Source of the DNA: Rhizobiales bacterium SYSU XM002
Lineage (GTDB): Bacteria > Pseudomonadota > Alphaproteobacteria > Rhizobiales > Beijerinckiaceae
Assembly: GCA_009846685.1 (NCBI GenBank)
Contig: VWVY01000001.1
Span: forward strand, 62,001-126,000
Direction of reading: 5' to 3'
DNA: 64,000 bases
Shown: one piece after another, positions 29,425-46,912 of the stretch
Numbering within the stretch: the first letter of the stretch is position 1
Layout of the letters: every line of letters starts with the position of its first letter
Translations under genes and position numbers: made by a program
The notes under the pieces: generated by a model
Seen by the model: only the letters and a program-made list of their open reading frames with translations
Databases searched by the model: none
What the model was told of the DNA's origin: nothing

Positions 29425-29598
29425 CGGCGGGACTCGATCAAAAGCACCTGCGACCTGTTCCCTGTGTAACTGCACGGCGCCATTCAACGTCCTAGCCTTG
29501 GCTCGGAAGTCATTTTTCCCTTGGCGATCGAGGGTGCGGTGGGGATACTCGCCGCAACGGGCTAAGACGGCGGCAACAAGAAAGTGGCGGGCGATTTG

Positions 29599-30225
29599 AT
29601 GAAGAAGGTGACATCCAAGCTTCGCGCGACGGCGAGATTTACTGGACTCTCGCTGCTTGTTCCGGGGTTCCTGGCTTTCACCTTTGGCGCGGCTGCCGCA
29701 GACAGGGCGGGTGCGGTCGATTCACTGTTCGGCGCTGCACAGGCAGAAATTGCAAAAACAGAACGGACGCTGGCGCAGGGCGATGCCGTTTTCGTCGGTG
29801 ACACCGTCATGACGGCCTTTCAAAGTCGCGTGTCCATGCAGGTGGGCGAGGCAACACGTATCAGGCTCGGAGAAAACGCTCGCCTTCGCATTGATCGCTA
29901 CCTGATGGGTGTCGGTGGCACGCTGACGTTAGGCTCGGGGCCGATGCTATTCGACCGCCCTTCCGGTGCCCGGCCCGAGGCGCTCCGGATTCGAGGCGCA
30001 TTTGGTGTCATTGCCGTGCGTGGGACGCGTTTTTTTGCCGGGCCAAGTCAAGGCAAGCTGGCGGTGTTTGTGGATCGCGGATCGGTGAGCGTGACCTCCG
30101 GCGGAAAAACCATCGCTCTCAAGGCGGGGGAGGGTACCGATATCGCCCACCCCGGCGCGCAGCCGACCATGCCGAAATCCTGGGGACATGCGCGCATCGT
30201 GGAAGCCTTTTCGACCGTCCGTTAG
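29599..30225 (+). CDS. FecR-domain exported protein
   Basis: 208 residues. A signal peptide (ATARFTGLSLLVPGFLAFTF, then GAAAADRA) leads to a FecR domain with LAQGDAVFVGDTVMTA, TRIRLGENARLRID and IRGAFGVIAVRGTRFFAGP. Classical FecR proteins are membrane anti-sigma regulators, but this form lacks the cytoplasmic N-terminal part and any partner sigma factor gene, and looks like a free periplasmic protein. ATG 29599 starts the signal peptide; GTG 29584 is an alternative. It is 9 bases upstream of a Crp/Fnr gene and opens the secretion/cyclase region. Confidence 0.85.
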   Translation: MKKVTSKLRATARFTGLSLLVPGFLAFTFGAAAADRAGAVDSLFGAAQAEIAKTERTLAQGDAVFVGDTVMTAFQSRVSMQVGEATRIRLGENARLRIDRYLMGVGGTLTLGSGPMLFDRPSGARPEALRIRGAFGVIAVRGTRFFAGPSQGKLAVFVDRGSVSVTSGGKTIALKAGEGTDIAHPGAQPTMPKSWGHARIVEAFSTVR

Positions 30226-30234
30226 GAGTTCCCG

Positions 30235-30951
30235 TTGCTGAGCGCCGCGCTGGATACCGAGAAGATCTCGACCGTTGACGAGCTGCGGGCGATCTTCGCC
30301 GATATCGCTCCGGAGGAAGCGCGCGCGCTGCTGGATGCATTCCGGCGGGTGACCTACAGTACAGGTGAAACGATTTTCACGCAGAACGAGCCAGGCGAGT
30401 TCATGCTGATCGTTTCGACGGGCCGGGTTCGTTTGTCCATTGTTTCGGAGGAGGGGCGGGAGCTGAACCTGCGCCACGCAACCGCCGGGCATGTGCTCGG
30501 CGAGATCGCGGCGCTGGACGGTGGACCGCGAAGCGCCACGGCAGTCGCGATCGAACCGGTTTCGGCCATGATGCTGACACGGGCCGACCTCAGGAGCCTG
30601 ATGCGTCGATATCCCGCCTTCGCGGAACGTTTCGTGATCTGGCTTTGCCAAAGGTTGCGCCAGACCACCGATCAGCTCGAAGCAATCGCGCTTTACCCGC
30701 TTGAAGTTCGCCTTGCGCGGTTCCTGCTCTTCACACTGAAGGGGCGCCGCGCGCCCGATGGGCGCAGAATTCCGCTTGAGCTGGGGTTTTCCCAAGGCGA
30801 GCTTGCCCAGTTCGTCGGCGGGAGTCGCTCGAAAGTGAATGTCGCGCTCGGCGTTCTGGAAAACGCGGGCGCCATCAAGAGGACGGCGGACCGGCTGTTT
30901 TGCTCGCCGGATTTGCTGGCCGAGATTGCCGGTGCCGACGTTGAGGGCTAG
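30235..30951 (+). CDS. Crp/Fnr-family transcriptional regulator
   Basis: 238 residues from TTG 30235, with AGGAG upstream. The cyclic-nucleotide-binding beta-roll is evident (GETIFTQNEPGEFMLIVSTG, HVLGEIAALDGGPRSATAVA), and the C-terminal HTH follows (LGFSQGELAQFVGGSRSKVN). The PRSATAVA segment, with R and S in the cAMP phosphate site position, suggests real nucleotide binding. No N-terminal Fnr cysteine cluster is present. It overlaps the CHASE2-cyclase gene, giving an obvious cAMP source and receptor pair. Confidence 0.9.
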   Translation: MLSAALDTEKISTVDELRAIFADIAPEEARALLDAFRRVTYSTGETIFTQNEPGEFMLIVSTGRVRLSIVSEEGRELNLRHATAGHVLGEIAALDGGPRSATAVAIEPVSAMMLTRADLRSLMRRYPAFAERFVIWLCQRLRQTTDQLEAIALYPLEVRLARFLLFTLKGRRAPDGRRIPLELGFSQGELAQFVGGSRSKVNVALGVLENAGAIKRTADRLFCSPDLLAEIAGADVEG

Positions 30952-32878
30952 CAGGCGGATTGGCTGGCTGACCCCGGTTTTCTGCGGCATCGCCGCGGCG
31001 ATCTGCGGCGTCGGTTTCCTGACGCTCGGACCTGCGCCCTGGCGCGAGGTCTCGAGAGCGGGTGTCGAGGACAGCATGATGCGCTGGGCCTATGGCCGCA
31101 GGTTTGAAGCGCAGTCCGCGTTTGAGGTCGCCGTGGTGGACATCGACAGCGCGACGCTGGAACGATTCGGGGCTTGGCCCTGGCCGCGCGAGCAGCTCGC
31201 TGGTCTCGTCAATCGCATCGCTGACGGACGCCCCTCGGCGTTGGGGCTCGATCTTGTTCTCACGGGCACCGACCCACGTTCGCCTGCAATGGAATTGCGA
31301 CGGCGCGGCCTGCCGGAGAATGACCCGCTTTTGAAAGCCATCGAATCGCGCCTCCCCCCCGGAGACGAAATGCTCAGGAAAGCTCTGGCGCGGGTGCCTT
31401 CGGTGCTGGGCATCGCACTGGACCTGAAGGCGACACCCGCGGCCCGTCCCGCACAATTCCTGACAACGGGTGACATTGCACTGGATCGCATCTGGCGCGC
31501 GCCGGGTGTTGTCGCGCCGGATGTCGTTTTGCCGGAACAAGCCGGACTGGGTCTGGTCGCTCTCCCGGCGGATTCGGATGGCATCGTCCGTCGTGTCCCG
31601 CTTGTTGCGGAGGTCGCCGGCGAGTTCCAGCCGGGTCTGAGCCTGGAGTTGCTTCGGATATCGTCGGGCGCCTCGGCTTTTATCCTTTCCGGGAATCCCA
31701 GGGTCATAACGGCGGGAGACGTCCGGATTGCCTTGCCCGGCGATGGCTTGTTGCGGCTTGTTCCCACGGTTTCTTCGCTTCCACGGCCCCAGCGCATCTC
31801 GGCAGCCGACATTTTTGAAGGGCCTGCAAGGGATTTGCGAGGCAAAATCGTCCTGATCGGCGCGAGCGCGCCTGAAATCGGCGGTCTGAGGTCGTCGATG
31901 GACGACAGTTTGACGCCAAGCGTGGTGATCCATGCACAGGCAGTCCTGCAGATGGCCGCAGGCATTTCCCCGCTGACGCCGAAGGGCGCAAAGGGGATGG
32001 AAATCGGCCTTTCAGCGTTGGCAGCAATGGCGGGGGCGGTTATGCCCGCCATCCTCCCGCCGCTCCTCGCGCTGGCCGGAGCGACCCTGATATTGGCAAT
32101 CCTCGTTTTTGGGTCAGTGTTTCTGCTGGTGCTGCACGCGAGCCTGTTGAGTCCACTGATGCCTGTTGTGGCGACCGTCCTGGCTTTTGCCGCGTCGGCG
32201 CTGACGACGTTCGCGATGCTGCGCCGGCAAGCTTCGATGATACGGCGCCGGTTCGAGCAGCATCTCTCGCCCGAGGTCGTCGCCAAGATTGCCCGGAACC
32301 CCCATCAGGCAAAGCTTGCCGGAGAGCGGCGCGAGATCACCGCACTTTTTACCGATATCGAGGGCTTCACGGCGTTCGCGGAACGGGCAGGGCCCGAGGC
32401 GATGATCACCTTGCTCGACCGCTATTTTGAAGAAGTCGTCGCGATCATCCTTCGGCATGGCGGAACCGTCGACAAGATCGTCGGCGACGCCGTGCATGCC
32501 TTTTTCAACGCGCCGCTCGATCTCGACGATCATGCCGGTTGCGCGGTTGCTTGCGCGATCGAGATTGTCGGGTGGACGGAAAAGTTCAGACACGACGACG
32601 AAGCCGCGAGGCTGGGCTTTGGCCGTACCCGGATCGGGATCGAGTCAGGCGAGGCGATCGTTGGCGATGTCGGCGTTCGGTCGAAACTCGATTATACCGC
32701 GCATGGCTACGCGGTGAATGCGGCAGCGCGTCTTGAGGGCGCCAACAAGGATTTCGGTACGGCGATCTGCATTGGACCCGGAGCCGCAGCGGCAGTTGCT
32801 CAGGACAAGCTGCGGCCGCTCGGGTCTCTCCAGTTGCGGGGGCATTCCCAGCCCGTCAACGTCTGGACGGTTGCCTGA
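30932..32878 (+). CDS. CHASE2-domain class III nucleotide cyclase
   Basis: About 648 residues from GTG 30932 (start uncertain; TTG 30941 also possible), overlapping the Crp gene. One N-terminal helix anchors an extracytoplasmic CHASE2 sensor (about 50-340; FEVAVVDIDSATLERFGAWP), then three helices (about 355-440) and the cyclase domain. Metal aspartates are present: D475 (LFTDIEGFT) and D519 (DKIVGDAVHAFF), as is the purine-recognition lysine K515. The partner substrate residue, normally Asp in HGDAVN, is Tyr593 (HGYAVN, codon TAC), which may weaken or alter ATP specificity. The SLQLRGHSQPVNVW end is typical. Confidence 0.9.
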   Translation: MPTLRASRRIGWLTPVFCGIAAAICGVGFLTLGPAPWREVSRAGVEDSMMRWAYGRRFEAQSAFEVAVVDIDSATLERFGAWPWPREQLAGLVNRIADGRPSALGLDLVLTGTDPRSPAMELRRRGLPENDPLLKAIESRLPPGDEMLRKALARVPSVLGIALDLKATPAARPAQFLTTGDIALDRIWRAPGVVAPDVVLPEQAGLGLVALPADSDGIVRRVPLVAEVAGEFQPGLSLELLRISSGASAFILSGNPRVITAGDVRIALPGDGLLRLVPTVSSLPRPQRISAADIFEGPARDLRGKIVLIGASAPEIGGLRSSMDDSLTPSVVIHAQAVLQMAAGISPLTPKGAKGMEIGLSALAAMAGAVMPAILPPLLALAGATLILAILVFGSVFLLVLHASLLSPLMPVVATVLAFAASALTTFAMLRRQASMIRRRFEQHLSPEVVAKIARNPHQAKLAGERREITALFTDIEGFTAFAERAGPEAMITLLDRYFEEVVAIILRHGGTVDKIVGDAVHAFFNAPLDLDDHAGCAVACAIEIVGWTEKFRHDDEAARLGFGRTRIGIESGEAIVGDVGVRSKLDYTAHGYAVNAAARLEGANKDFGTAICIGPGAAAAVAQDKLRPLGSLQLRGHSQPVNVWTVA

Positions 32879-32926: not shown

Positions 32927-34243
32927 TCATTCGTCGCGCATGGCGCGCGCGATCCTGTCGCGAAGCGGGCCGAGTAGATAGGCCAGCATCGTGCGTTCTC
33001 CGGTGATGATCAGAACGTCGGCCGGCATGCCGGGAACCAACTGCTTGGCAAGGGCGGGCGGAATGTTGGCCGGTTCGATGACCACCTTGGCCTGATAGAA
33101 GGTCTCGCGCGAACGGGGGTCTTCCACTGCATCTGCGGAAACTGTTTCGACCTTCCCGAAAATGGGATCGGGCTTGCGCGCCGCGAACGCGGGGAAGCGA
33201 ATCTCGGCCTTCTGGCCCGGGCTGATGCTCTGGATGTTCAATGGCGACACGCGCGCCGTCAGCGTAATGCGTTCGAGCGGAGGGACCACTTCGGCCAGCG
33301 TGGCGCCAGGGGGGACCACGGCGCCGGGCGTCTTGACGGCCACGTTGAGAACGATACCCGCGCGCGGCGCGCGTACTTCCACGCGGTTGAGAACCGCCTC
33401 GGCGACTTCCAGCCTTTCCCGGGCATCGTTCATCTTGGCGCGCACATCCGCGAGAAGCTGGGTCTGTTCCTCGAGCGCGCGTTGCCGGGTCTGGCGAATT
33501 TGCAGACGCGACTCCTCGATGACCTGGGAAAATCGCGCCAGTTCGCCCTCCAGCCCGCCGATGTCGCCTTCGAGGCGGGCTGCGTCGCGCTCCAGCGCTC
33601 TCATGCGGTTGCGGGGGAAAAAGCCCTTCTCGACAACCGGGCGGATGGCCTCGATTTCTGCGGCGAGGCTCGAATGCTGGGTTCGCAGCGAAGCCAGCCG
33701 GCGGTTGCGTCCTTCGATATCCTTTTCCGTCTGCTCGATCCGTGTTTCGAGGATGCCGATCTGGTTCTCCATGGAACGTCGACGTTCGTTCAGAAGCCGC
33801 TCCTGTTCCACCATGAGCTGTTGGAGTTCGGCCTGGGAGGCCTTTCCGGTGAGTGTCGCGGGGAAGGAGATGGTCGTCCGGCCGTCGCGTTCGGCGAGAA
33901 GGCGCGCCTCCTCGGCGCGAAGCCGATCCAGTTGTTTCGAGAGCAGATCGAAATTTGCACGCGCCCCGGTTGCGTCGATCCGGAACAATATCTGTCCTTC
34001 GCTGACCGTCTCGGCATCCTTCACCAGAATCTCCCTGACGATGCCGCCTTCGAGATGCTGAACCGGCTTTCGGTCTCCCTCCACGGCGATACGCGCCGGC
34101 GCGACAGCCGCGCTATCGAGCGGGGCAAACGCAGCCCAAGTTCCGAAACCGCCGAAGACCAGAACAATCGCCGCAAATGCCAGCCGGGTAAATCGCCGAT
34201 GATCGTGAAGCTGGTCATCGTGTTCAGGACTAGGGTTGGTCAT
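32927..34243 (-). CDS. HlyD-family type I secretion membrane fusion protein
   Basis: 438 residues. A short cytoplasmic N-terminus and one helix (LAFAAIVLVFGGFGTWAAF) are followed by a lipoyl half-motif (VQHLEGGIVREILVKDAETV), a long coiled coil (about 115-290; MENQIGILETRIEQTEKDIE), the second half (RVEVRAPRAGIVLNV) and a beta-barrel region. VQHLEGGIV is the hallmark of PrtE/HlyD adaptors of type I secretion. It bridges an inner-membrane ABC exporter and a TolC-like channel. It lies on the same strand behind the large repetitive gene and converges with the cyclase gene. No TolC gene is present in the window. Confidence 0.93.
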   Translation of the reverse strand: MTNPSPEHDDQLHDHRRFTRLAFAAIVLVFGGFGTWAAFAPLDSAAVAPARIAVEGDRKPVQHLEGGIVREILVKDAETVSEGQILFRIDATGARANFDLLSKQLDRLRAEEARLLAERDGRTTISFPATLTGKASQAELQQLMVEQERLLNERRRSMENQIGILETRIEQTEKDIEGRNRRLASLRTQHSSLAAEIEAIRPVVEKGFFPRNRMRALERDAARLEGDIGGLEGELARFSQVIEESRLQIRQTRQRALEEQTQLLADVRAKMNDARERLEVAEAVLNRVEVRAPRAGIVLNVAVKTPGAVVPPGATLAEVVPPLERITLTARVSPLNIQSISPGQKAEIRFPAFAARKPDPIFGKVETVSADAVEDPRSRETFYQAKVVIEPANIPPALAKQLVPGMPADVLIITGERTMLAYLLGPLRDRIARAMRDE

Positions 34244-37642: not shown

Positions 37643-39373
37643 ATGAGTGGGTCCGATAAGAATAAACAAAATGATCCGCTTCGAATTGCCATTAAAGCGG
37701 CGGTTCCTGGTACTATCGCGGCAGTTGTCATCAGCATGTTTATCAATGCGACGATGCTGGCGCTTCCCGTTTATTCGATGCAGATCTATGATCGGGTTCT
37801 CTCAAGCCGCAACGAGACGACTCTCATCCTTCTAACGATGATCGTCCTGGTATTCCTGGTTCTGTATGGAATCCTCGAGTATGCGCGCTCCGGGGTCCTC
37901 GTCCGTTCCAGTGTGGCGTTTGAAAGGATCCTGCGTCGACCGCTCTTCGACACCATGATGCGGGCAGAACTCGATCCGGAAAGACGGCAAGGACAGCAGG
38001 TCATCCGGGATGCGGAGATCATCCGGGACTCTCTCGCCAGCGGCACGGTTGCGGTCATTTGCGACCTGCCCTGGACGCCGCTGTTCGTTCTGCTTTGCTT
38101 CTTCATGCACCCTGTGTTGGGTGCAATCGCGATGACCGGCGCGGTCGTGCTTTTCGGGCTGGCGGTTTTGACCGAAATCCTGACAAAAAAGGGTGTCGAC
38201 CATTTCTCGCGCCTATCCAACGACGCCTCGACTTTTGCCGCTGCCGCCTTGCGGAATGGCGAGGTTGTCCGCGGGCTTGGCATGGGCGATACCATTCTGG
38301 AGCGCTGGAGCGGCCAGCAACACGCCGCGGTAGCCGCGAATGCCGCGTCTGCCGAATTGACGGCCGCGCTCGTGGCGATGTCCAAGTTTGCACGCATCGC
38401 CGTTCAGACCGGTGTTCTTGCTGCCGGTGCTTGGCTGGCGATCGAGAAACAGATCTCGCCGGGATCGATGATGGCCGCATCGATTATCATCGGGCGCGCG
38501 CTGGCGCCGGTCGAGCAGATCGTCGGTCAATGGAAGCGTATCGTGGCCTGCCGCAGCGCCTATCGCCGGCTACGAAACCTGATGGACGAATTCCCGCAAC
38601 AGGCCGCGCCGGTTAGCCTGCCTGCACCCCAAGGCCATATCGAAGTTGAAAATGTCTACATTATCCCGCCTTCCGCATCGCGCCCTTCCGTCCGCGGCGT
38701 GTCGTTCAGCGTGGCGCCAGGCAACAGCGTCGCCATCGTCGGCGCATCGGGCAGCGGCAAGTCATCGCTGGCGCGCGCGCTCGCCGGGGTGTGGGAACTG
38801 CGCGCGGGCGAAATCCGGATTGATGGCGCCTCTCTGGAACAATGGGATCGCAACAAGCTGGGAAAGAGTGTCGGCTATCTGCCTCAGGATATCGAGCTTT
38901 TTGCCGGAACCGTAGCAGACAACATTGCGCGGCTCGAAAACGTCGACAGTCGGGCAGTTGTCGCTGCAGCCAAGGCTGCGGGGGCGCATGATGTCATTCT
39001 GCGGCTTCCGCAGGGTTATGATACGCCGATCGGCGAGGGGGGGCTGGCGCTCTCCGGCGGCATGCGCCAGCGTGTCGGGCTCGCCAGGGCGTTGTACGGC
39101 GACCCGCGCCTGATCGTTCTGGATGAGCCCAATTCTAACCTCGACGAGGATGGCGAGCGCGCGCTTGGGCTGGCTATGGCACAGATGAAACTGTCCGGCC
39201 GTACCGTCATGGTCGTGACGCATCGCCCTCAGTTATTGGCTTACGTGGACAAGGTGCTGGTCATGTCTTTCGGGACGGCGCTCGCCTTCGGGGATCGCGA
39301 CGAGGTCATTGCCCGCATGCGGGGGAACCGCGTGGCCGCGGTGGAATCCTCGCGCGAAACTAGCGCGGCCTGA
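37643..39373 (+). CDS. type I secretion ABC transporter ATPase/permease (PrtD family)
   Basis: 576 residues: an ABC exporter membrane domain (helices in about 20-300; FINATMLALPVYSMQIYDRV is the PrtD/AprD hallmark) fused to an ATPase with Walker A GASGSGKSS (367-375), Q-loop VGYLPQDIELFAGTVADNI, signature LALSGGMRQRVGLARALYG and Walker B RLIVLDEPNSNLDEDG. There is no N-terminal C39 peptidase, so its substrate should carry an uncleaved C-terminal signal. It pairs with the HlyD-type adaptor at 32927. It is divergent from the repetitive gene and is followed by the OmpA-domain and kinase-FGE genes on the same strand. Confidence 0.95.
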   Translation: MSGSDKNKQNDPLRIAIKAAVPGTIAAVVISMFINATMLALPVYSMQIYDRVLSSRNETTLILLTMIVLVFLVLYGILEYARSGVLVRSSVAFERILRRPLFDTMMRAELDPERRQGQQVIRDAEIIRDSLASGTVAVICDLPWTPLFVLLCFFMHPVLGAIAMTGAVVLFGLAVLTEILTKKGVDHFSRLSNDASTFAAAALRNGEVVRGLGMGDTILERWSGQQHAAVAANAASAELTAALVAMSKFARIAVQTGVLAAGAWLAIEKQISPGSMMAASIIIGRALAPVEQIVGQWKRIVACRSAYRRLRNLMDEFPQQAAPVSLPAPQGHIEVENVYIIPPSASRPSVRGVSFSVAPGNSVAIVGASGSGKSSLARALAGVWELRAGEIRIDGASLEQWDRNKLGKSVGYLPQDIELFAGTVADNIARLENVDSRAVVAAAKAAGAHDVILRLPQGYDTPIGEGGLALSGGMRQRVGLARALYGDPRLIVLDEPNSNLDEDGERALGLAMAQMKLSGRTVMVVTHRPQLLAYVDKVLVMSFGTALAFGDRDEVIARMRGNRVAAVESSRETSAA

Positions 39374-39404: not shown

Positions 39405-40673
39405 ATGTCCGTTACCAGCGACCTTCGGGATTTTGGGCCAGTCCGTGCGTTGCGCCGCTTCGCTCGGGCCGGTTCCCAAGCTTTTGCCTGGGTGGCGGCG
39501 GCCGGTCTGGCCACCATTGTCCTGAGTAGCCCTCTCGCGGTGGCTGCTCCACTGGGCATGCCAGCCGCCGCTCCCAAGGGACAGGCTCCTGCTCCCCTCG
39601 ACAAGGCTTTCGTTTCGGCGGCGACGGAGCTTTTCGACAAGGTCAAGGCCGGGACGGGCAAGACGATCGTCGTGATCGACCCCTTGCTGGACGGGGTGAC
39701 TGGCATGCAATCGCGGGCAACGCGGGACTTTGACAAGCGGATCGCCGCATTCTTGGGCGAAAAATATCCGCACATCGAGGTGCGGCCGATGACGGTCGAA
39801 AACCTCGCGCAGGCCAAGTATGTCTTTATCGGCACCTTCAACACGATCAACAACGCCGGCCAACCTTCAGGACCGCGCGATGCCTTCTGGATCTGCTTCG
39901 CTCTGGTCGATCAGGGTGAGAAAAACGTCTTCGCCCGGAGCGTTGCGCGTGCAGCGTTGTCAAATGTCGACATCGCGCCTGCGCGCTTCTATGCCGACAC
40001 CCCTGTCTGGGGCCTTGATGCGGCGACGACGGGCTATATCGAAACATGCCAGCGCAAGGAGCCGGGCGAGCCCGTGCCCCCGGCCTATCTGGCACAACTC
40101 CCGGCCGCAGCGCGCATCCGTGAGGCAACGATGGCCTACGAAAGCGGCGATACTCCGAAAGCGCTCGCCTTGTACAAGGAAGCCCAGACAATGCCGGGAG
40201 GTGAGCAAATTCGCACGCTGAATGGTCTCTATCTGACGTTGACGGCGATGGGGCAGCGCGAGGAAGCCGGCAAGGCGTTCGGCGAACTTGTCGGTTCGGG
40301 GCTCAAGCGTGGACAGCTTGGCGTGATGTTTCTTTTTGAGGCCGGGTCGACCAATTTCAATGCCGACGTGGGCACCTCCAGCAGGTACGGGAACTGGCTC
40401 GACGAGATCGCAGCGCAGGCGGGCAAGTCCAGCGACTGCCTCGAAGTTGTCGGGCATGCCAGCCGGACTGGCGTGGAAAGTTACAACGTCGGCTTGTCGC
40501 GCGAGCGTGCCGAGCGCATCATAGCCTTGCTTGGGGAGCGCAGCCCTGCCATCAAGGCAAGGCTGAAGCCCGCCGGGCTTGGCTCGAGCGAGGTGCTGGT
40601 GGGACTTCCGCAAGACGATGCGAGCACTGCAATCGACCGACGCGTGGAATTCAAGCCAGGCCAGTGCACATGA
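39405..40673 (+). CDS. OmpA-domain envelope protein with TPR-like region
   Basis: 422 residues with GAGGAG before ATG 39405. A long signal region (FAWVAAAGLATIVLSSPLAV) is followed by an N-terminal domain of unknown type (TIVVIDPLLDGVTGMQSRAT, YVFIGTFNTINN), helical repeats resembling TPR (about 235-315; AYESGDTPKALALYKEAQTM), and a C-terminal OmpA-like peptidoglycan-binding domain (CLEVVGHASRTGVESYNVGL, ERAERIIALL). It probably sits in the periplasm tied to the cell wall. It lies 31 bases after the exporter ATPase and overlaps the kinase-FGE gene by ATGA. The first domain somewhat resembles curli CsgG-like nucleotide folds, but I cannot assign it. Confidence 0.82.
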   Translation: MSVTSDLRDFGPVRALRRFARAGSQAFAWVAAAGLATIVLSSPLAVAAPLGMPAAAPKGQAPAPLDKAFVSAATELFDKVKAGTGKTIVVIDPLLDGVTGMQSRATRDFDKRIAAFLGEKYPHIEVRPMTVENLAQAKYVFIGTFNTINNAGQPSGPRDAFWICFALVDQGEKNVFARSVARAALSNVDIAPARFYADTPVWGLDAATTGYIETCQRKEPGEPVPPAYLAQLPAAARIREATMAYESGDTPKALALYKEAQTMPGGEQIRTLNGLYLTLTAMGQREEAGKAFGELVGSGLKRGQLGVMFLFEAGSTNFNADVGTSSRYGNWLDEIAAQAGKSSDCLEVVGHASRTGVESYNVGLSRERAERIIALLGERSPAIKARLKPAGLGSSEVLVGLPQDDASTAIDRRVEFKPGQCT

Positions 40674-42943
40674 GTGGAGAAGACGGCCGCCCTGTCGCGG
40701 CGGAAGATCGTCTGGCGCTGACGCCGGGCACGCGTATCGGCAATGCCTATCTGGTCCTCAAGACCGCAGAGTTCGGCTCTGCGGCCTTGTGCTATGAGGG
40801 GCTCCGCCTTGCGGATCAGGTTGCGGTGACGCTTTTCGAATTTTTTCCGCGTGGCATCGCTCTTCGTGCCCAAGGCGGCTCTGTTGCAGCTGTCCGCGGT
40901 TGGGAGCAGGAGTTTGAGACGGCCCGTGTTCGCTTCTCCGACCGAGCCGAAACGCTCGGGCGGGTCGATATCGCTTCAATTGCGAAGCCGATAGGCCAAC
41001 TGGAAGACCACGGCACGCTGTACGTGGTGTGCCAGGCCGCTGCGGGGCCAATACTATCGGCTTGGGCCAGTGATTTGCTGCGCCGCCCGTCCGACGTGGA
41101 CATGGCGCGGATGGCCTTGCGTCTCGGTCAGGCTCTTCAAACTTTTCATCGGGCAGGAGAGGGGCACGGCAGGGTTGGGGATGCCCAGATCCATGTTTCC
41201 GCACCGGAGCAAACAATCTTGTCCGGCGCTCTGCTGGAGACCACGCCAGCTGCCAACGGTGCTCACCCCGATGTCCGGGCGTTGGCCTCTGCCCTCTATT
41301 CCGTCATCATCGGTCGCCTGCCGCCGCCGGAGAATCGCGACCGGTCGCTCGATGCCCGGTTCTCGGCGCTGCACATGGCGTCAGGAGACTATTCGGACCG
41401 GTTGTTGGAACTGATCGACGCCGCGCTCGAATTTGGCGAGGGCGCGCCGCGTGTCGATGCCGATGTCTGGCTCGATCGGTTGATTTCAGTGGCGCAAGAA
41501 ATACTCGCTGAGACAACCCCTGCGCCAAAGCCGGAAGGCGTCTCACCCAAGGTTTCGCCCAGTGTGGCGGTCGAATCCAAAGGCGAAGACCGGGGCAGCT
41601 CTGTAAATCCGGACCGCAACCGGAGCGAGCCGAATCCCGCACCGGCCCCTGCGCAACGCAAGAATCCAATCGTGGTCGCTGCGGGTATCGCGATCGTGCT
41701 TGTCGGTGTTGCGGCCTGGCTCGGCTATCTCCTGCTCGGTCAGACACCAAACACGGCTTCGGAGCCGAAGGTTGCTGTTCGGTCTGACGCGTCGGTCAAG
41801 CCTGCACCCGCCCCCGAACGGAAGCCCGAACCGGTTGCCAGGACCTTGGCTCCGCCGCCGGAAGCAAAGCCGGCTCCTGTATCGCCTTCGCCATCCCAGC
41901 CAGCGCCTGCGGCGGCACCCGCGGCTTCTCCGCCGCAGGTGAGCGTCGTGTTGCCCGAGTTGCCAGCCATCCCGCCGCCGCCGAGCCGACCGGCGGTAAC
42001 GGATGACGACATCAAGAAGGCAGGCTCCCGCGAGGAGGCATTCGCTCTGCTTGAGCGCGGCGCTGACAGGGTTGCGATCACGGCGAGACTGGCCGAACTC
42101 GGGTTCACCCCGGTTTCCGCTGCCGGGGAAATAGTCTACCGGAAAGCGGCCGCAGGCGAAACATGGCGCGATTGTTCGACATGCCCGGAACTGGTGCTGG
42201 TTCCGCCGGGTGCGACAACCATGCAGATAAGCATTGCCGACAAGACCCAATCTCTGGATTTTCGCTTCGATCGCCCGCTTGCCGTGGCGCGTTACGAGGT
42301 GACGCGCGGCCAGTATGCGGCCTTCGCACGCGAAACGGGGCGGGTGACCGGCGGCGGATGCCATGCCCGTTCTCCATCCTGGGGCCTCAATCCGGCCCTC
42401 AACTGGGAGAACGCCGGCTTTGCGCAGACGGATGATCATCCCGTCGTATGCGTCAGTTTCGGCGATGCTGTTGCCTATGTTGAATGGCTTTCCGCGAGGA
42501 CCGGGCAACGTTATCGGCTGCCGACGGACGCCGAATGGCACTACCTTGCAGCCGCAGAAAAGTGGAGCGAACGGCAACCGGATCAGCTCTGTGCGATTGG
42601 GAACGGGGCGGATCGCTCTGCCCGTGCAGGCAATCCGGAATGGCAGCACGCGGATTGCGATGACGGTGCTGCCGCGACCGCTCCGGTCGGAACATATGCT
42701 GCCGGGCCGTGGGGGCTTCACGACCTGAACGGAAATGTCTGGGAGTGGGTGGCCACCTGTGCGCCGGAACCTAGGCCCGACGCTGAATTCCCGCCGCGCA
42801 CCTGCCTGCCAGGAGCGCCGCGATTGCTGAGAGGGGGCTCATGGGCCGATGCGCCGCGTCTGCGGCAGCTCGATTCGCGTGTCATCAGCGCACCGACGGT
42901 TCGCGATCAGGTCGCCGGGTTCAGGGTGGTCCGTGATCCCTGA
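40670..42943 (+). CDS. degenerate Ser/Thr kinase - TM - FGE/SUMF1-like fusion
   Basis: 757 residues. Residues about 15-265 resemble the bacterial kinase group with VAIKEYFP, but the lysine is lost (VAVTLFEFFPRGIALR) and the catalytic loop is replaced (HGRVGDAQI), so it looks like a pseudokinase. A helix (333-357; IVVAAGIAIVLVGVAAWLGY) and a Pro/Ala-rich linker lead to an FGE-sulfatase-fold domain (about 505-755: YEVTRGQYAAFARETGR, YRLPTDAEWHYLAAA, DLNGNVWEW, LRGGSWADAPRLRQLDSR). The two active-site cysteines of true FGE are missing after RGGSW. A cytoplasmic kinase-like half and a periplasmic FGE-like half suggest signal transfer across the membrane. It is coupled to the OmpA-domain gene. Confidence 0.82.
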   Translation: MSGEDGRPVAAEDRLALTPGTRIGNAYLVLKTAEFGSAALCYEGLRLADQVAVTLFEFFPRGIALRAQGGSVAAVRGWEQEFETARVRFSDRAETLGRVDIASIAKPIGQLEDHGTLYVVCQAAAGPILSAWASDLLRRPSDVDMARMALRLGQALQTFHRAGEGHGRVGDAQIHVSAPEQTILSGALLETTPAANGAHPDVRALASALYSVIIGRLPPPENRDRSLDARFSALHMASGDYSDRLLELIDAALEFGEGAPRVDADVWLDRLISVAQEILAETTPAPKPEGVSPKVSPSVAVESKGEDRGSSVNPDRNRSEPNPAPAPAQRKNPIVVAAGIAIVLVGVAAWLGYLLLGQTPNTASEPKVAVRSDASVKPAPAPERKPEPVARTLAPPPEAKPAPVSPSPSQPAPAAAPAASPPQVSVVLPELPAIPPPPSRPAVTDDDIKKAGSREEAFALLERGADRVAITARLAELGFTPVSAAGEIVYRKAAAGETWRDCSTCPELVLVPPGATTMQISIADKTQSLDFRFDRPLAVARYEVTRGQYAAFARETGRVTGGGCHARSPSWGLNPALNWENAGFAQTDDHPVVCVSFGDAVAYVEWLSARTGQRYRLPTDAEWHYLAAAEKWSERQPDQLCAIGNGADRSARAGNPEWQHADCDDGAAATAPVGTYAAGPWGLHDLNGNVWEWVATCAPEPRPDAEFPPRTCLPGAPRLLRGGSWADAPRLRQLDSRVISAPTVRDQVAGFRVVRDP

Positions 42944-42972: not shown

Positions 42973-43488
42973 TCAGCGTCTGGAACGGCAGCCGTCGACC
43001 TTGAGTTCGTGGAAGGCGATCGCGCTCCGAACGGCGGCGATCGTCTGCGTCCGGCACCAGGACAGATGTTCGTCCTCGCTGTTCCGGATGCCGAGGTAGT
43101 TGACGCAACCTCCCGCGGCGCCTTCGGCCACGATATGGGTCATGGTTTTCGCGTAATCCTGGCAGGTCTTCTCGTCGGCAGGCCCGGAAGGGTCGGCACC
43201 GGAAGGAAATGCCTTGTGGGTCGAGAGACAGAGACCGAAGGCTTGATGCCAGCCCTTCAATGCCTCGGCCGCGCGATCGGGGTTTTTGATGCACCATTCG
43301 AAATGGCGGCTGAAGTCGGAATGCCCCTTCCATCCCTCGCAACGCCGCTGTTGCACGAGCCTGTCCATCCTCACCATGTCGTTGGTGTAGTCCATGCAGC
43401 TGGTTTGCGCCGAAGCCGGCGATGCGACCGCAAGGCCAATCACGGTGGAAACAAGCAGGGCGGTGAGGTTTCGCGTCGGAGCACTCAT
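42973..43488 (-). CDS. Cys-rich exported protein of unknown function
   Basis: 171 residues. A signal peptide (TALLVSTVIGLAVASPASAQ) is followed by a small mature domain with eight cysteines, in SCMDY, RRCEGW, EWCIKN, GLCLST, KTCQDY, GGCVNY, SWCRT and DGCRS. They could make four disulfides. I recognise no family. It converges with the kinase-FGE gene (30-base gap) and is divergent from the TAXI binding-protein gene across 172 bases. Membership in the secretion module is only positional. Confidence 0.75.
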   Translation of the reverse strand: MSAPTRNLTALLVSTVIGLAVASPASAQTSCMDYTNDMVRMDRLVQQRRCEGWKGHSDFSRHFEWCIKNPDRAAEALKGWHQAFGLCLSTHKAFPSGADPSGPADEKTCQDYAKTMTHIVAEGAAGGCVNYLGIRNSEDEHLSWCRTQTIAAVRSAIAFHELKVDGCRSRR

Positions 43489-43660: not shown

Positions 43661-44629
43661 ATGATTTTTTCACGTCGTGACGCCCTCAAGGGCGCCGCAG
43701 CCCTTGCCGCTCTTTCCACCGCTGGCGGTTCCGCGCTGGCACAGGCCAAGTTCTTTCGCATCGGCACCGGCGGCACGGGCGGCACTTATTACCCGATTGG
43801 CGGCATCATCGCCAACGCGATCTCGAGCGACAAGGTCAATGCCTCCGCTGTCGCCTCGAACGGCTCGGTCGCCAATGTGAACGCCATCGTCGGCGGGGCA
43901 TCGGAATCGGGATTCAGCCAGGCCGACGTTGCGACATGGGCCTACACCGGCACCGGCATCTATGAAGGCAAGGGCAAGGTCGAGGAGTTGCGCGCCATCG
44001 CCAACCTGTACCCGGAAACGGTGCATATCGTCGTCAAGAAGGGTCTCGGCGTAAAGTCGCCGGCCGATATCAAGGGCAAGCGCTTTTCGGTCGATGAGCC
44101 GGGCTCGGGCTCGCTCGTCAATGCCCGCGCGATCCTCGCGGCCTATGGCGTGACGGACAAGGACTACAAGCCGGAATTCATCAAGCCGGGCCCCGCGATC
44201 GAGAAGATGAAGGATGGCTCGCTCGACGGTTTCTTCTTCACTGGTGGCTATCCCTTCGGCGCGTTGACCGAGCTTGGCGCGACGCACGGCTTCGAACTCG
44301 TGCCGGTCGATGGTCCGCAGGCCGAAGAGCTGAAGAAGAAGTTCACCTTCTTCGCCGACGACACGATTCCCGATACGGCCTACAAGGACACCAAGGGCGT
44401 GAAATCGCTTGCGGTCGGCGCGCAATGGGTGACGAGCGCGAAGATCGACGCCGATCTCGTCTACGAAGTGACGAAGGGCCTCTGGTCCGACAAGGCGCGC
44501 GCCGCGCTCGACACTGGCCACGCCAAGGGCAAGGCTGTCGTCAAGGCGAACGCGCTCGCGGGGCTCGGCATTCCGCTGCATCCCGGCGCCGAGCGCTTCT
44601 ACAAGGAAGCCGGACTTCTGAAGAAATAA
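43661..44629 (+). CDS. TAXI-family TRAP solute-binding protein
   Basis: 322 residues. A twin-arginine-like signal (SRRDALKGAAALAALSTAGG) precedes FFRIGTGGTGGTYYPIGGII, the defining TAXI opening, then NGSVANVNAIVGGASESGFS and QADVATWAYTGTG. TAXI receptors deliver dicarboxylates, glutamate-like or other acids to a fused TRAP permease, here encoded 102 bases downstream. The gene is divergent from the Cys-rich exported gene. The ligand is unknown. Confidence 0.93.
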   Translation: MIFSRRDALKGAAALAALSTAGGSALAQAKFFRIGTGGTGGTYYPIGGIIANAISSDKVNASAVASNGSVANVNAIVGGASESGFSQADVATWAYTGTGIYEGKGKVEELRAIANLYPETVHIVVKKGLGVKSPADIKGKRFSVDEPGSGSLVNARAILAAYGVTDKDYKPEFIKPGPAIEKMKDGSLDGFFFTGGYPFGALTELGATHGFELVPVDGPQAEELKKKFTFFADDTIPDTAYKDTKGVKSLAVGAQWVTSAKIDADLVYEVTKGLWSDKARAALDTGHAKGKAVVKANALAGLGIPLHPGAERFYKEAGLLKK

Positions 44630-44731
44630 GTCCCCGAACGGGAAAACAATCGGCCTGCGCGGCACGCGCCGCGCGGGCCTTGATGCTTTGCGGGGCGCGC
44701 CGAAGGGCAGGGGCCGGACGAGGGGGCTGGG

Positions 44732-46912
44732 ATGACGGATGCGAAATCGCCGATCGGTGATCTCGATCTCAAGAAGGCGCAGGAGCTGGAGGAGAGCCTC
44801 GATCACGAGATCCGGTTCCGGCCCTTGCTGCCGCGCACCGCCTGGCTGGTTGCGGGGCTGCTGCTGGCGCTCTCGCTTTTCCACTATTACACTGCCGGCT
44901 TCGGCCTTCTGCCGGAAGTGACGCATCGCGGCATCCATCTCGCCTTCGTCATCGGTCTGATTTTCCTCGTCTTCCCGGCCTTCAAATCGAAGGTTCCGCA
45001 AGTGCCGCAGGCTTCACTTTTGCGGCCGATGGGCATCCATGTCATCGATTGGGCGCTGTTTTTCGCCGCCGTTGTATCGAGCCTCTATGTGCCGTGGATC
45101 TTCCACGATCTCGTCTTCCGCGTCGGCAATCCCGGCACGGTGGATGTCATCATGGGATCGCTCACGATCCTCGTTTTGATCGAGGCGACGCGCCGCGCGA
45201 TCGGCTGGCCGCTGCCGATCATCGCCATCCTGCTGATGCTCTACGCGATGGCCGGTCCCTCGCTGCCGGGCATTTTCGCGCATCCCGGCAACAGCTGGAA
45301 GTCGATCGTCAACCACCTCTACCTGACCTCGCAGGGCGTCTACGGCATCGCGCTTGGCGTGGTCGCGACCTATGTGTTCCATTATGTCCTGTTCGGCGTG
45401 CTGGCGACGCGCGTCGGCCTCGGCAAGCTCTTCATCGACCTCGCGATGGCGCTGGCGGGACGCTTCTCGGGCGGACCAGCCAAGGTCTCGATCTTCGCCT
45501 CCGGCCTGTTCGGCATGATTTCCGGCTCGTCGATCGCCAATACCGTGACGGTCGGCTCGCTGACGATCCCGATGATGATCCGCATCGGCTATCCGCGCCA
45601 TTTCGCCGGGGCGGTCGAATCCACCGCCGCGACCGGCGGGCAGATCACGCCGCCAATCATGGGCGCGGCGGCCTTCCTGATGGTCGAATTTCTCAACCTG
45701 CCGTATCAGACGATCATCATCGCTGCGATCGTACCAGCGGCGATGCACTTCTTCGGCGTGTTCTGTCAGGTGCATTTCGAGGCGAAGAAGCTTGGCCTGA
45801 AAGGTGTCGCACAGGCCGACTTGCCGCGCGCCTGGGACGTGATCCGCGAGGGTTGGCCGGCGGTGACGCCGCTCGTCGTCCTCCTCGCAGTGCTGCTCTC
45901 GGGCTACACGCCGTATCTCGCGGCCTTCTGGGGCATCACCGCCTGCATGGTCGTGGGGCTGACCGACCGCAACAAGCTCGTTTCGGTGGCGCTGCTCCTG
46001 ATCATGGTCACGCTGATATCGACCGGCTCGATTGTGACGGCTTGGGGCACGGCAGTCGGTTTCGGATTCTCGCTGCTGGCCTCGGCCTGGTTCGTGCTCA
46101 AGGACGGCAAGGCGAACGGCGTCGTGCGCATTGCCGGCTTGACGGATGCTTTCGTCACCGGCGCGAAATACGCCATCGGCGTCGGCGCGGCGGCGGCGAC
46201 GGTGGGCATCATCATCGGCGTCGTGACGCTCACCGGCGTCGGCTTCAAGCTCTCGGATATCGTGGTTGGCTTTGCGCGCGACCTGACCACCTTCACCACA
46301 GCGCTTGTGCCGGCGGACTGGTTCACCCCCGCCAAGCTGACGTTGTTCTTCACGCTGGTGATGACCGGGATCGTCTGCATCCTGCTCGGTTGCGGCATCC
46401 CGACCACGGCGAGCTACATCATCATGGTGACGATCGCTCAGCCGGCGCTTGGCAAGCTCGGCGTCGAGCCGATCGTCTCGCACTTCTTCGTCTTCTATTA
46501 TGGTCTTCTGGCGGATATCACGCCGCCCGTCGCGCTTGCAGCTTATGCGGGAGCAAGCATGGCCGGGGCAGACCCGTTCAAGACCGGGAATACCGCGTTC
46601 CGGCTCGGGCTCGCGAAGGTGATGGTGCCGTTCGTCTTCACCTTTTCGCCGGCGATGCTGATCGTGACCAAGGGTTTCACCTGGAGCGAATTCGCGCTCA
46701 CGGTTTCCGGCTGCGTCGTCGGCATCGTCATGCTCGCGGCGGCCGTGACCGGGTTCGGGCTCACGCGGATGCGGCGCTGGGAGCAGTTGCTGCTCTTCGC
46801 CGGCTCGGTTCTGGTGATATCGCCGAACACGACCGCCACCCTCGTCGGGCTCGCGGCTGCGGTGCCGGTGATCCTGCGGCAGGTCGCAGCCTCGCGGACG
46901 GCGACGATCTGA
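44732..46912 (+). CDS. fused 4TM-12TM TRAP transporter permease (TAXI type)
   Basis: 726 residues. The N-terminal small-permease-like helices (about 30-175) are joined to the large DctM-like unit, as is normal for TAXI systems. Markers are GMISGSSIANTVTVGSLTIP, TAATGGQITPPIMGAAAFLM, LLGCGIPTTASYIIMV and YYGLLADITPPVALAAYAGA. It forms a sodium- or proton-coupled importer with the receptor encoded just upstream. It converges with the SMP-30 gene across 49 bases. Confidence 0.94.
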   Translation: MTDAKSPIGDLDLKKAQELEESLDHEIRFRPLLPRTAWLVAGLLLALSLFHYYTAGFGLLPEVTHRGIHLAFVIGLIFLVFPAFKSKVPQVPQASLLRPMGIHVIDWALFFAAVVSSLYVPWIFHDLVFRVGNPGTVDVIMGSLTILVLIEATRRAIGWPLPIIAILLMLYAMAGPSLPGIFAHPGNSWKSIVNHLYLTSQGVYGIALGVVATYVFHYVLFGVLATRVGLGKLFIDLAMALAGRFSGGPAKVSIFASGLFGMISGSSIANTVTVGSLTIPMMIRIGYPRHFAGAVESTAATGGQITPPIMGAAAFLMVEFLNLPYQTIIIAAIVPAAMHFFGVFCQVHFEAKKLGLKGVAQADLPRAWDVIREGWPAVTPLVVLLAVLLSGYTPYLAAFWGITACMVVGLTDRNKLVSVALLLIMVTLISTGSIVTAWGTAVGFGFSLLASAWFVLKDGKANGVVRIAGLTDAFVTGAKYAIGVGAAAATVGIIIGVVTLTGVGFKLSDIVVGFARDLTTFTTALVPADWFTPAKLTLFFTLVMTGIVCILLGCGIPTTASYIIMVTIAQPALGKLGVEPIVSHFFVFYYGLLADITPPVALAAYAGASMAGADPFKTGNTAFRLGLAKVMVPFVFTFSPAMLIVTKGFTWSEFALTVSGCVVGIVMLAAAVTGFGLTRMRRWEQLLLFAGSVLVISPNTTATLVGLAAAVPVILRQVAASRTATI

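Follow-up and report, generated by a model that had tools for sequence, protein, structure and literature searches.

A pseudokinase-FGE fusion beside a type I exporter: a candidate double-pseudoenzyme scaffold

The window analysed here is a 64,000-nucleotide stretch of contig VWVY01000001.1 (positions 62,001 to 126,000, assembly GCA_009846685.1) from Rhizobiales bacterium SYSU XM002, a genome of 3.46 Mb in 15 contigs. It contains a gene that joins a kinase-like half, a predicted membrane helix and a domain with the fold of formylglycine-generating enzyme (FGE). The gene follows one for an OmpA-like partner and lies close to genes for an ATP-binding cassette (ABC) exporter and an HlyD adaptor, both of which exceed the NCBIfam cut-offs for type I secretion and mark the locus as a type I secretion locus (Table 1). 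We find that the kinase half has lost key catalytic residues in every genome in which the fusion was recovered, and that the fusion is probably a scaffold or sensor for the neighbouring exporter machinery.

Table 1. Coordinates of the fusion gene, its parts and its neighbours in the window.
Feature	Position	Strand	Basis or remark
Pseudokinase-transmembrane-FGE fusion, 757 aa	40670..42943	+	Open reading frame, start ATG 40670, stop 42941-42943
Pseudokinase half, aa 1-290, presumed cytoplasmic	40670..41539	+	Alignments, model
Predicted membrane helix, aa 334-356	41669..41737	+	Hydropathy
Linker rich in Pro/Ala, then short region resembling kinase-less Bosea proteins	41738..42166	+	
FGE/PvdO-like domain	42167..42940	+	PF03781, alignments; cysteine pair of FGE missing behind RGGSW, another 8 cysteines conserved
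Partner: OmpA-like peptidoglycan-binding C-terminus, own N-terminal domain	39405..40673	+	ATGA overlap with fusion gene
PrtD-type type I secretion permease/ATPase	37643..39373	+	TIGR01842, 676.8 bits against cut-off 510.15
Likely exported substrate, Ala/Gly-rich amphipathic-repeat protein, 1022 residues	34359..37427	-	Ends SFNLFG
HlyD-type periplasmic adaptor	32927..34243	-	TIGR01843, 358.1 bits against cut-off 208.65
CHASE2 sensor with class III adenylate/guanylate cyclase domain	30839..32878	+	
FecR-domain protein, N-terminus secretion-like	29584..30225	+	
Small cysteine-containing protein, N-terminus secretion-like	42973-43488	-	No family match reaches a cut-off
TAXI/TRAP transporter genes beside OmpA-FGE	43661-46912		

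The ATG of the fusion gene overlaps the TGA of the OmpA-like gene as ATGA. This overlap was present at all eight loci compared and, in a second comparison, at seven of eight starts, the exception being the divergent protein of genome G228; because it recurs among relatives, ATG 40670 is preferred over a possible alternative start, GTG at 40664. The protein contains a single strong hydrophobic stretch (residues 334-356, Kyte-Doolittle 2.58), which agrees with an earlier sequence-only reading that described a pseudokinase joined through the membrane to an FGE fold. Eight cysteines of the FGE half occupy corresponding places in all six full-length proteins compared, every one C-terminal to the hydrophobic stretch, and the kinase half has no cysteine common to the six. 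Their confinement to the FGE half fits an orientation in which that half faces the oxidising periplasm. The predicted layout is thus a pseudokinase inside and an FGE fold outside the inner membrane, with one helix between them.

The kinase half was compared with six live kinases that align along its length and come from other genomes in the order (one, L039, is cut by a contig end). These references carry VAIKE[YF]FP (VTIK in one), LHRD and DFG, and most have WD40-like repeats as judged by eye, one having been checked with Pfam. In the window VAIKEYFP is replaced by VTLFEFFP and LHRDIAPDNI by GHGRVGDAQI, such that F56 occupies the position of the VAIK lysine, R168 that of the HRD aspartate and Q173 that of the catalytic-loop asparagine. 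The DFG motif and the activation segment are absent, a glycine standing at the position of the DFG aspartate. Retained are the structural histidine (H166) and the alpha-F aspartate (D201), together with the sequence pattern around the lost residues.

The same pattern was observed across the nine genomes with the fusion, the window and G228 included. None keeps the beta-3 lysine, the HRD aspartate or the catalytic asparagine, so the loss of the VAIK lysine and HRD loop noted in the sequence-only reading extends to all nine. The DFG aspartate is lost in eight (exception L123) and the activation segment also in eight, the divergent G228 protein (L116) retaining one; the structural histidine and alpha-F aspartate are present in 9/9. 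By comparison, all six residues are retained in 31 of 31 other kinases from loci of the partner OmpA-like family, a set selected by a live-kinase profile and hence biased toward live ones. The reading frames of 18 of these 31 overlap the OmpA frame or sit at most 500 bp away. Two duplicate rows (L108 and L109, whose contigs equal L123 and L128) and six kinase-WD40 reference rows were left out of this residue table.

The missing residues might have been displaced rather than lost, as the sequence-only reading had allowed. Across eight aligned kinase-half homologues no lysine is invariant, and none of the invariant acids (for example D49, E57 and D201) falls in the catalytic loop or the DFG place; thus no displaced catalytic residue was seen by eye. 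Taken together, the alignments indicate that the kinase half is a true pseudokinase.

Pfam reports no family in the window kinase half and Pkinase in only one of the eight homologues (E=0.0099); the G228 protein gives Pkinase at E=0.0079, under the cut-off. The missing match was considered as a sign of an absent fold and rejected, as Pfam does not recognise this kinase half. A profile of the eight homologues finds PpkA (E=3.7e-14), PknE (6e-6) and mycobacterial Rv3910 (1.7e-4), and an AlphaFold model, computed from a 19-row alignment that includes live kinases, has a kinase fold with a predicted local distance difference test (pLDDT) score of 90.2. PpkA is also the best structural match of this model, both with Foldseek (E=1.5e-14, template modelling score 0.63) and with VIA-align (Z 22.6, root-mean-square deviation (rmsd) 4.3, 252 aligned residues). 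We take PpkA to be a live kinase of another secretion system (type VI), in keeping with the earlier suggestion of live relatives there. Rv3910 (Z 20.8, rmsd 3.5, 239 aligned) ties with live kinases such as PknB. EssB/YukC and relatives were not among the 50 structure matches listed for the kinase half, and were not compared with it directly. The pseudokinase of MviN/Rv3910 (ActPs3) is presumably attached to a multi-helix MviN membrane domain, whereas the fusion has a single helix, an FGE fold and no MviN Pfam match. The relevant passages of PMC12599244 place that membrane-linked bacterial pseudokinase, whose fold is very similar, in a transmembrane protein of peptidoglycan synthesis, and describe MviN as recruiting a partner protein.

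Selection was assessed through the ratio of nonsynonymous to synonymous divergence (dN/dS). Among three Phreatobacter genomes (G665, G495 and G575; loci L121, L122 and L120), which give three non-independent pairs, dN/dS was 0.16-0.25 in the kinase half, 0.04-0.06 in the FGE half and 0.33-0.41 in the linker; for the ABC gene the single pair L120-L122 gave a dN of 0.0008 and a dS of 0.18. Between the window and L119, from a genome (G012) that the grouping used places in the same genus, the values were 0.25 for the kinase half and 0.10 for the FGE half, at dS above 1.5. By these estimates the kinase half is under purifying selection, and conservation within the protein is strongest in the FGE half (0.04-0.10).

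The FGE half matches PF03781 at E=2.1e-41 (142.7 bits against a cut-off of 23.3); with the kinase model, this bears out the view that both parts keep their fold signatures. When aligned to true FGE (6s07/5nxl), the residues after LLRGGSW include no cysteine and leave a three-residue gap opposite LCHEsyC, whose cysteines we take to be the copper-binding pair. The RGGSW block therefore does lack the pair after it, as first noted from the sequence, and the same two cysteines are also absent from the other 10 homologous FGE domains aligned. The domain thus belongs to the fold family but lacks the cysteine pair of a formylglycine-generating enzyme. Its best solved match is PvdO (E=4.3e-28), followed by CalU17, true FGEs and PorK (E=2.7e-10); it scores below the curated cut-offs for both the PvdO equivalog (NF051459, 123.9 bits against 500) and GldK/PorK (TIGR03525, 58.9 against 350).

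Relatives of the locus were collected by scanning contigs with an alignment of the OmpA family, and the best 80 of 170 were kept (L119-L198); a scan with the single fusion protein recovered no relative, although L119 was present among those contigs. Some genomes bear two labels (G012=L119, G183=L128, G314=L123, G290=L125, G438=L127). Profile labels among these best 80 of 170 loci were pseudokinase for 7, a live-kinase-type open reading frame (ORF) for 31, a caspase-like ORF for 26 (9 loci having both of these) and no sought family besides OmpA for 22. The caspase-like profile was built from three proteins; Pfam confirmed two L153 ORFs as Peptidase_C14, and caspase, WD40 and oxidoreductase identities were Pfam-checked on samples. 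An exporter above 700 bits was labelled in five of the seven pseudokinase loci, and L121 holds a 209-bit end piece of one at its contig edge. None of the 73 other OmpA-family loci has such an exporter, 50 of them having at least 5 kb on either side of OmpA; in two (L160 and L168), type I-like ABC genes with weaker matches lie 2 to 8 kb off.

Overall the exporter is adjacent in eight of the nine fusion genomes, so that the same fusion, which the sequence-only reading proposed to seek near other type I loci, was found there in seven genomes besides the window. Among 397 evenly drawn genomes of the order, only the window and the three Phreatobacter genomes exceeded 450 bits with the pseudokinase profile, the next scoring 89. 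The 397 genomes of the family gave full or split fusions in G000, G012, G183 and G314, plus G228 by inspection. BLAST with the window proteins detected no kinase-half match in L037 (G057).

Six genomes contain the OmpA-like gene and an FGE gene without the kinase half (G320, G290, G438, G409, G340 and G280, two identified as Bosea and the group hence "Bosea-type"); L126, whose contig stops inside OmpA, was excluded from this count. Identity is 59-62% for OmpA and 54-56% for the FGE domain, and the short N-terminus of the FGE protein resembles a signal peptide. No exporter of PrtD-type was found in the 20 kb read in the six genomes. In a tree of 39 hand-chosen OmpA rows, the kinase-less group forms one clade (100/99), whose nearest neighbour is the row of Bosea sp. 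AAP35, which has both kinase half and exporter; G228 sits on a very long branch flagged by the tool. These sequences are most simply read as a single joint loss of kinase half and exporter. The sequence-only reading had not mentioned the OmpA partner, the genes for FecR and CHASE2-cyclase or the kinase-less relatives.

We favour a model in which the fusion is a double-pseudoenzyme scaffold that ties the exporter to the cell wall at a type I secretion locus, and give it a probability of about 0.5. The protein would act as an inner-membrane adaptor built from two catalytically silent modules. Its cytoplasmic pseudokinase would dock on the cytoplasmic side of the type I exporter (the ABC protein or its substrate), while the periplasmic FGE fold would dock on the peptidoglycan-anchored OmpA-like partner. 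Export of the amphipathic-repeat protein, as the regulated output, would thereby be coupled to the cell wall, and in genomes that carry the FecR and CHASE2-cyclase genes also to an envelope-sensing module.

The scaffold is favoured because modules of the EssB type and the PorK type here span the membrane beside an exporter and are coupled to an OmpA-like partner. EssB/YukC is presented in the relevant passages of PMC12599244 as a structural hub of type VIIb secretion, formed by a membrane pseudokinase whose motifs are degraded and whose activation loop is reduced. The fusion resembles it by description, as a membrane protein at a secretion system with a cytoplasmic pseudokinase, three degraded motifs and a reduced activation loop; it differs in its neighbours, a type I ABC exporter and HlyD rather than a type VIIb locus, and in its FGE-fold outer half. 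PorK/GldK of type IX secretion offers the counterpart for that outer half, since PorK, in the part of PMC12421860 devoted to it, lacks both catalytic cysteines and uses the FGE fold as a docking hub of a secretion machine. PorK is described there as a protein with insertion domains that is part of a ring at the outer membrane, whereas the FGE half in the window is linked through the inner membrane to a pseudokinase.

Several observations weigh against the scaffold. One fusion locus, L124, on a 4.2-kb metagenome contig, has pseudokinase and OmpA, yet the 1.9 kb upstream of OmpA contain an FAD-binding oxidoreductase ORF and no exporter. The bias among the 31 comparison kinases lessens the contrast with live ones. 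The branch placing AAP35 beside the kinase-less clade has a support of 90/82 and is not starred; since kinase half and exporter probably disappeared together just once, within one clade, their joint absence is suggestive, short of proof. The persistence of OmpA-FGE without the exporter also suggests the CHASE2/FecR module as its possible main partner. The module lies near OmpA-FGE in six of nine fusion loci and in all six kinase-less genomes. It was not seen at G314, within 3.7 kb past HlyD (L123) or 8.9 kb past the end of FGE (L107), and the 7.8 kb of downstream sequence in L128, whose upstream side is cut off, also lacked it; the L124 contig is too short to judge. The module is therefore common with the fusion, not obligatory, and its link is weaker for the scaffold and for a sensor alike.

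Such a transmembrane sensor is the foremost rival, and a doubtful one in our estimation. Here the periplasmic FGE (C-type-lectin-like) fold would bind a ligand and the pseudokinase would relay inward, perhaps to the CHASE2-cyclase, with the exporter as output. The frequent CHASE2/FecR neighbours speak for it, as does the proposal, in the relevant part of PMC10907252, that FGE-type CLec domains serve as sensors in conflict systems. The strong conservation of the FGE half is unlike that of a diversifying sensor, and the loci G314 and L128 count against this rival too.

It is unlikely that the FGE half is an enzyme of another type (PvdO/EgtB-like), acting on a secreted or other envelope substrate and merely localised by the pseudokinase. 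This would accord with the strong conservation of the domain and with its closest solved relative, PvdO, whose likeness includes an N-terminal DC..CPE motif. In the relevant passages of a review on pyoverdines (PMC6206403), PvdO is periplasmic and required for the last oxidation, that of dihydropyoverdine, yet the purified protein was inactive with no detectable cofactor. PvdO is moreover a pyoverdine maturation protein, and the window domain falls below its equivalog cut-off; no catalytic site was recognised in the domain. Since PvdO and PorK also lack the two cysteines, and PvdO is needed for an oxidation, their loss does not exclude an enzyme. The sequence-only reading of a signalling or scaffolding element thus stands as the best one, while its step from missing cysteines to a non-enzyme does not.

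Nucleotide binding by the kinase half, or an activity newly acquired by it (AMPylation or glutamylation, as in SelO and SidJ), seems improbable to us: bacterial pseudokinases of this kind exist according to part of PMC12599244, but the lysine, HRD aspartate and asparagine are lost in 9/9 genomes and the DFG aspartate in 8/9, the glycine loop is degraded and no conserved replacement residues were seen by eye. Ordinary decay of a kinase gene into a pseudogene is more improbable still; G013 and G015 of the window's genus (loci L033 and L044) yield only shortened or fragmentary FGE matches, perhaps from decaying copies, but no internal stops occur in the stretches seen of the nine genomes (the gene leaves the contig in L123/G314 and L124), the same losses occur in two families, and selection is purifying.

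Pseudokinases with a membrane helix and cysteine-less FGE folds are each already known; a pseudokinase-FGE fusion in a type I locus was not found by word searches of the open-access literature. The CP1 and DLHK pseudokinase families are described in the relevant passages of PMC12599244 as having no transmembrane region, which places the fusion, with its predicted helix, outside them. The usual description of a type I system is that of a three-part machine. We tentatively propose, as a possibility with the odds against it, that this one has a dedicated trans-envelope regulator with an EssB-like pseudokinase inside and a PorK-like FGE hub outside, clamped to the peptidoglycan-anchored OmpA partner and usually beside a CHASE2-cyclase. 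If so, the clade would have added a controlled fourth part, convergently reusing the two folds that type VII and type IX systems have recruited. That a single protein next to a type I exporter unites both dead modules points to dead enzymes of these kinds as general-purpose docking parts. Related loci supply natural contrasts, namely loci where a live kinase accompanies this OmpA family and genomes without kinase half and exporter, such that the role of the dead kinase is directly testable by removing half of one gene.

Members of the OmpA-like partner family occur widely in Proteobacteria, and their neighbours vary between live kinases, caspase-like proteins, caspase-FGE fusions and the exporter module. 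Associations of caspases with FGE and with OmpA were previously known, the relevant part of a survey (PMC3501461) having counted 33 sequences in which a metacaspase is fused to FGE and 14 metacaspase operons that include OmpA domains. The N-terminal domain of the OmpA partner matches LpoB (Z 8.1, 108 aligned), which by the tool's note is near background.

The repeat protein is taken as a substrate on account of its place in the locus and its conserved C-terminus. It ends in SFNLFG in the window, L119 and L123 and in SFNLF in L120 and L122, that is, in all five readable loci; a strict FNLF(G) pattern run on eight sequences matched the window alone, and the other four ends were seen through the ORF listing. 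No RTX family occurs among the Pfam matches of this protein, and it has no cysteine. It is likely an exported type I substrate, possibly of a non-RTX kind. DGTSNTI repeats occur within it.

The cyclase appears to keep the class III catalytic residues, as judged by eye against known motifs. In a Burkholderia biofilm operon, according to part of PMC5192318, a FecR protein occurs together with a CHASE2 histidine kinase. Membership of the TAXI/TRAP genes in the module was weighed but dropped, given low identity and a different orientation in the kinase-less genomes. Their adjacency in the window and in the kinase-less loci L110-L115 is possibly a coincidence.

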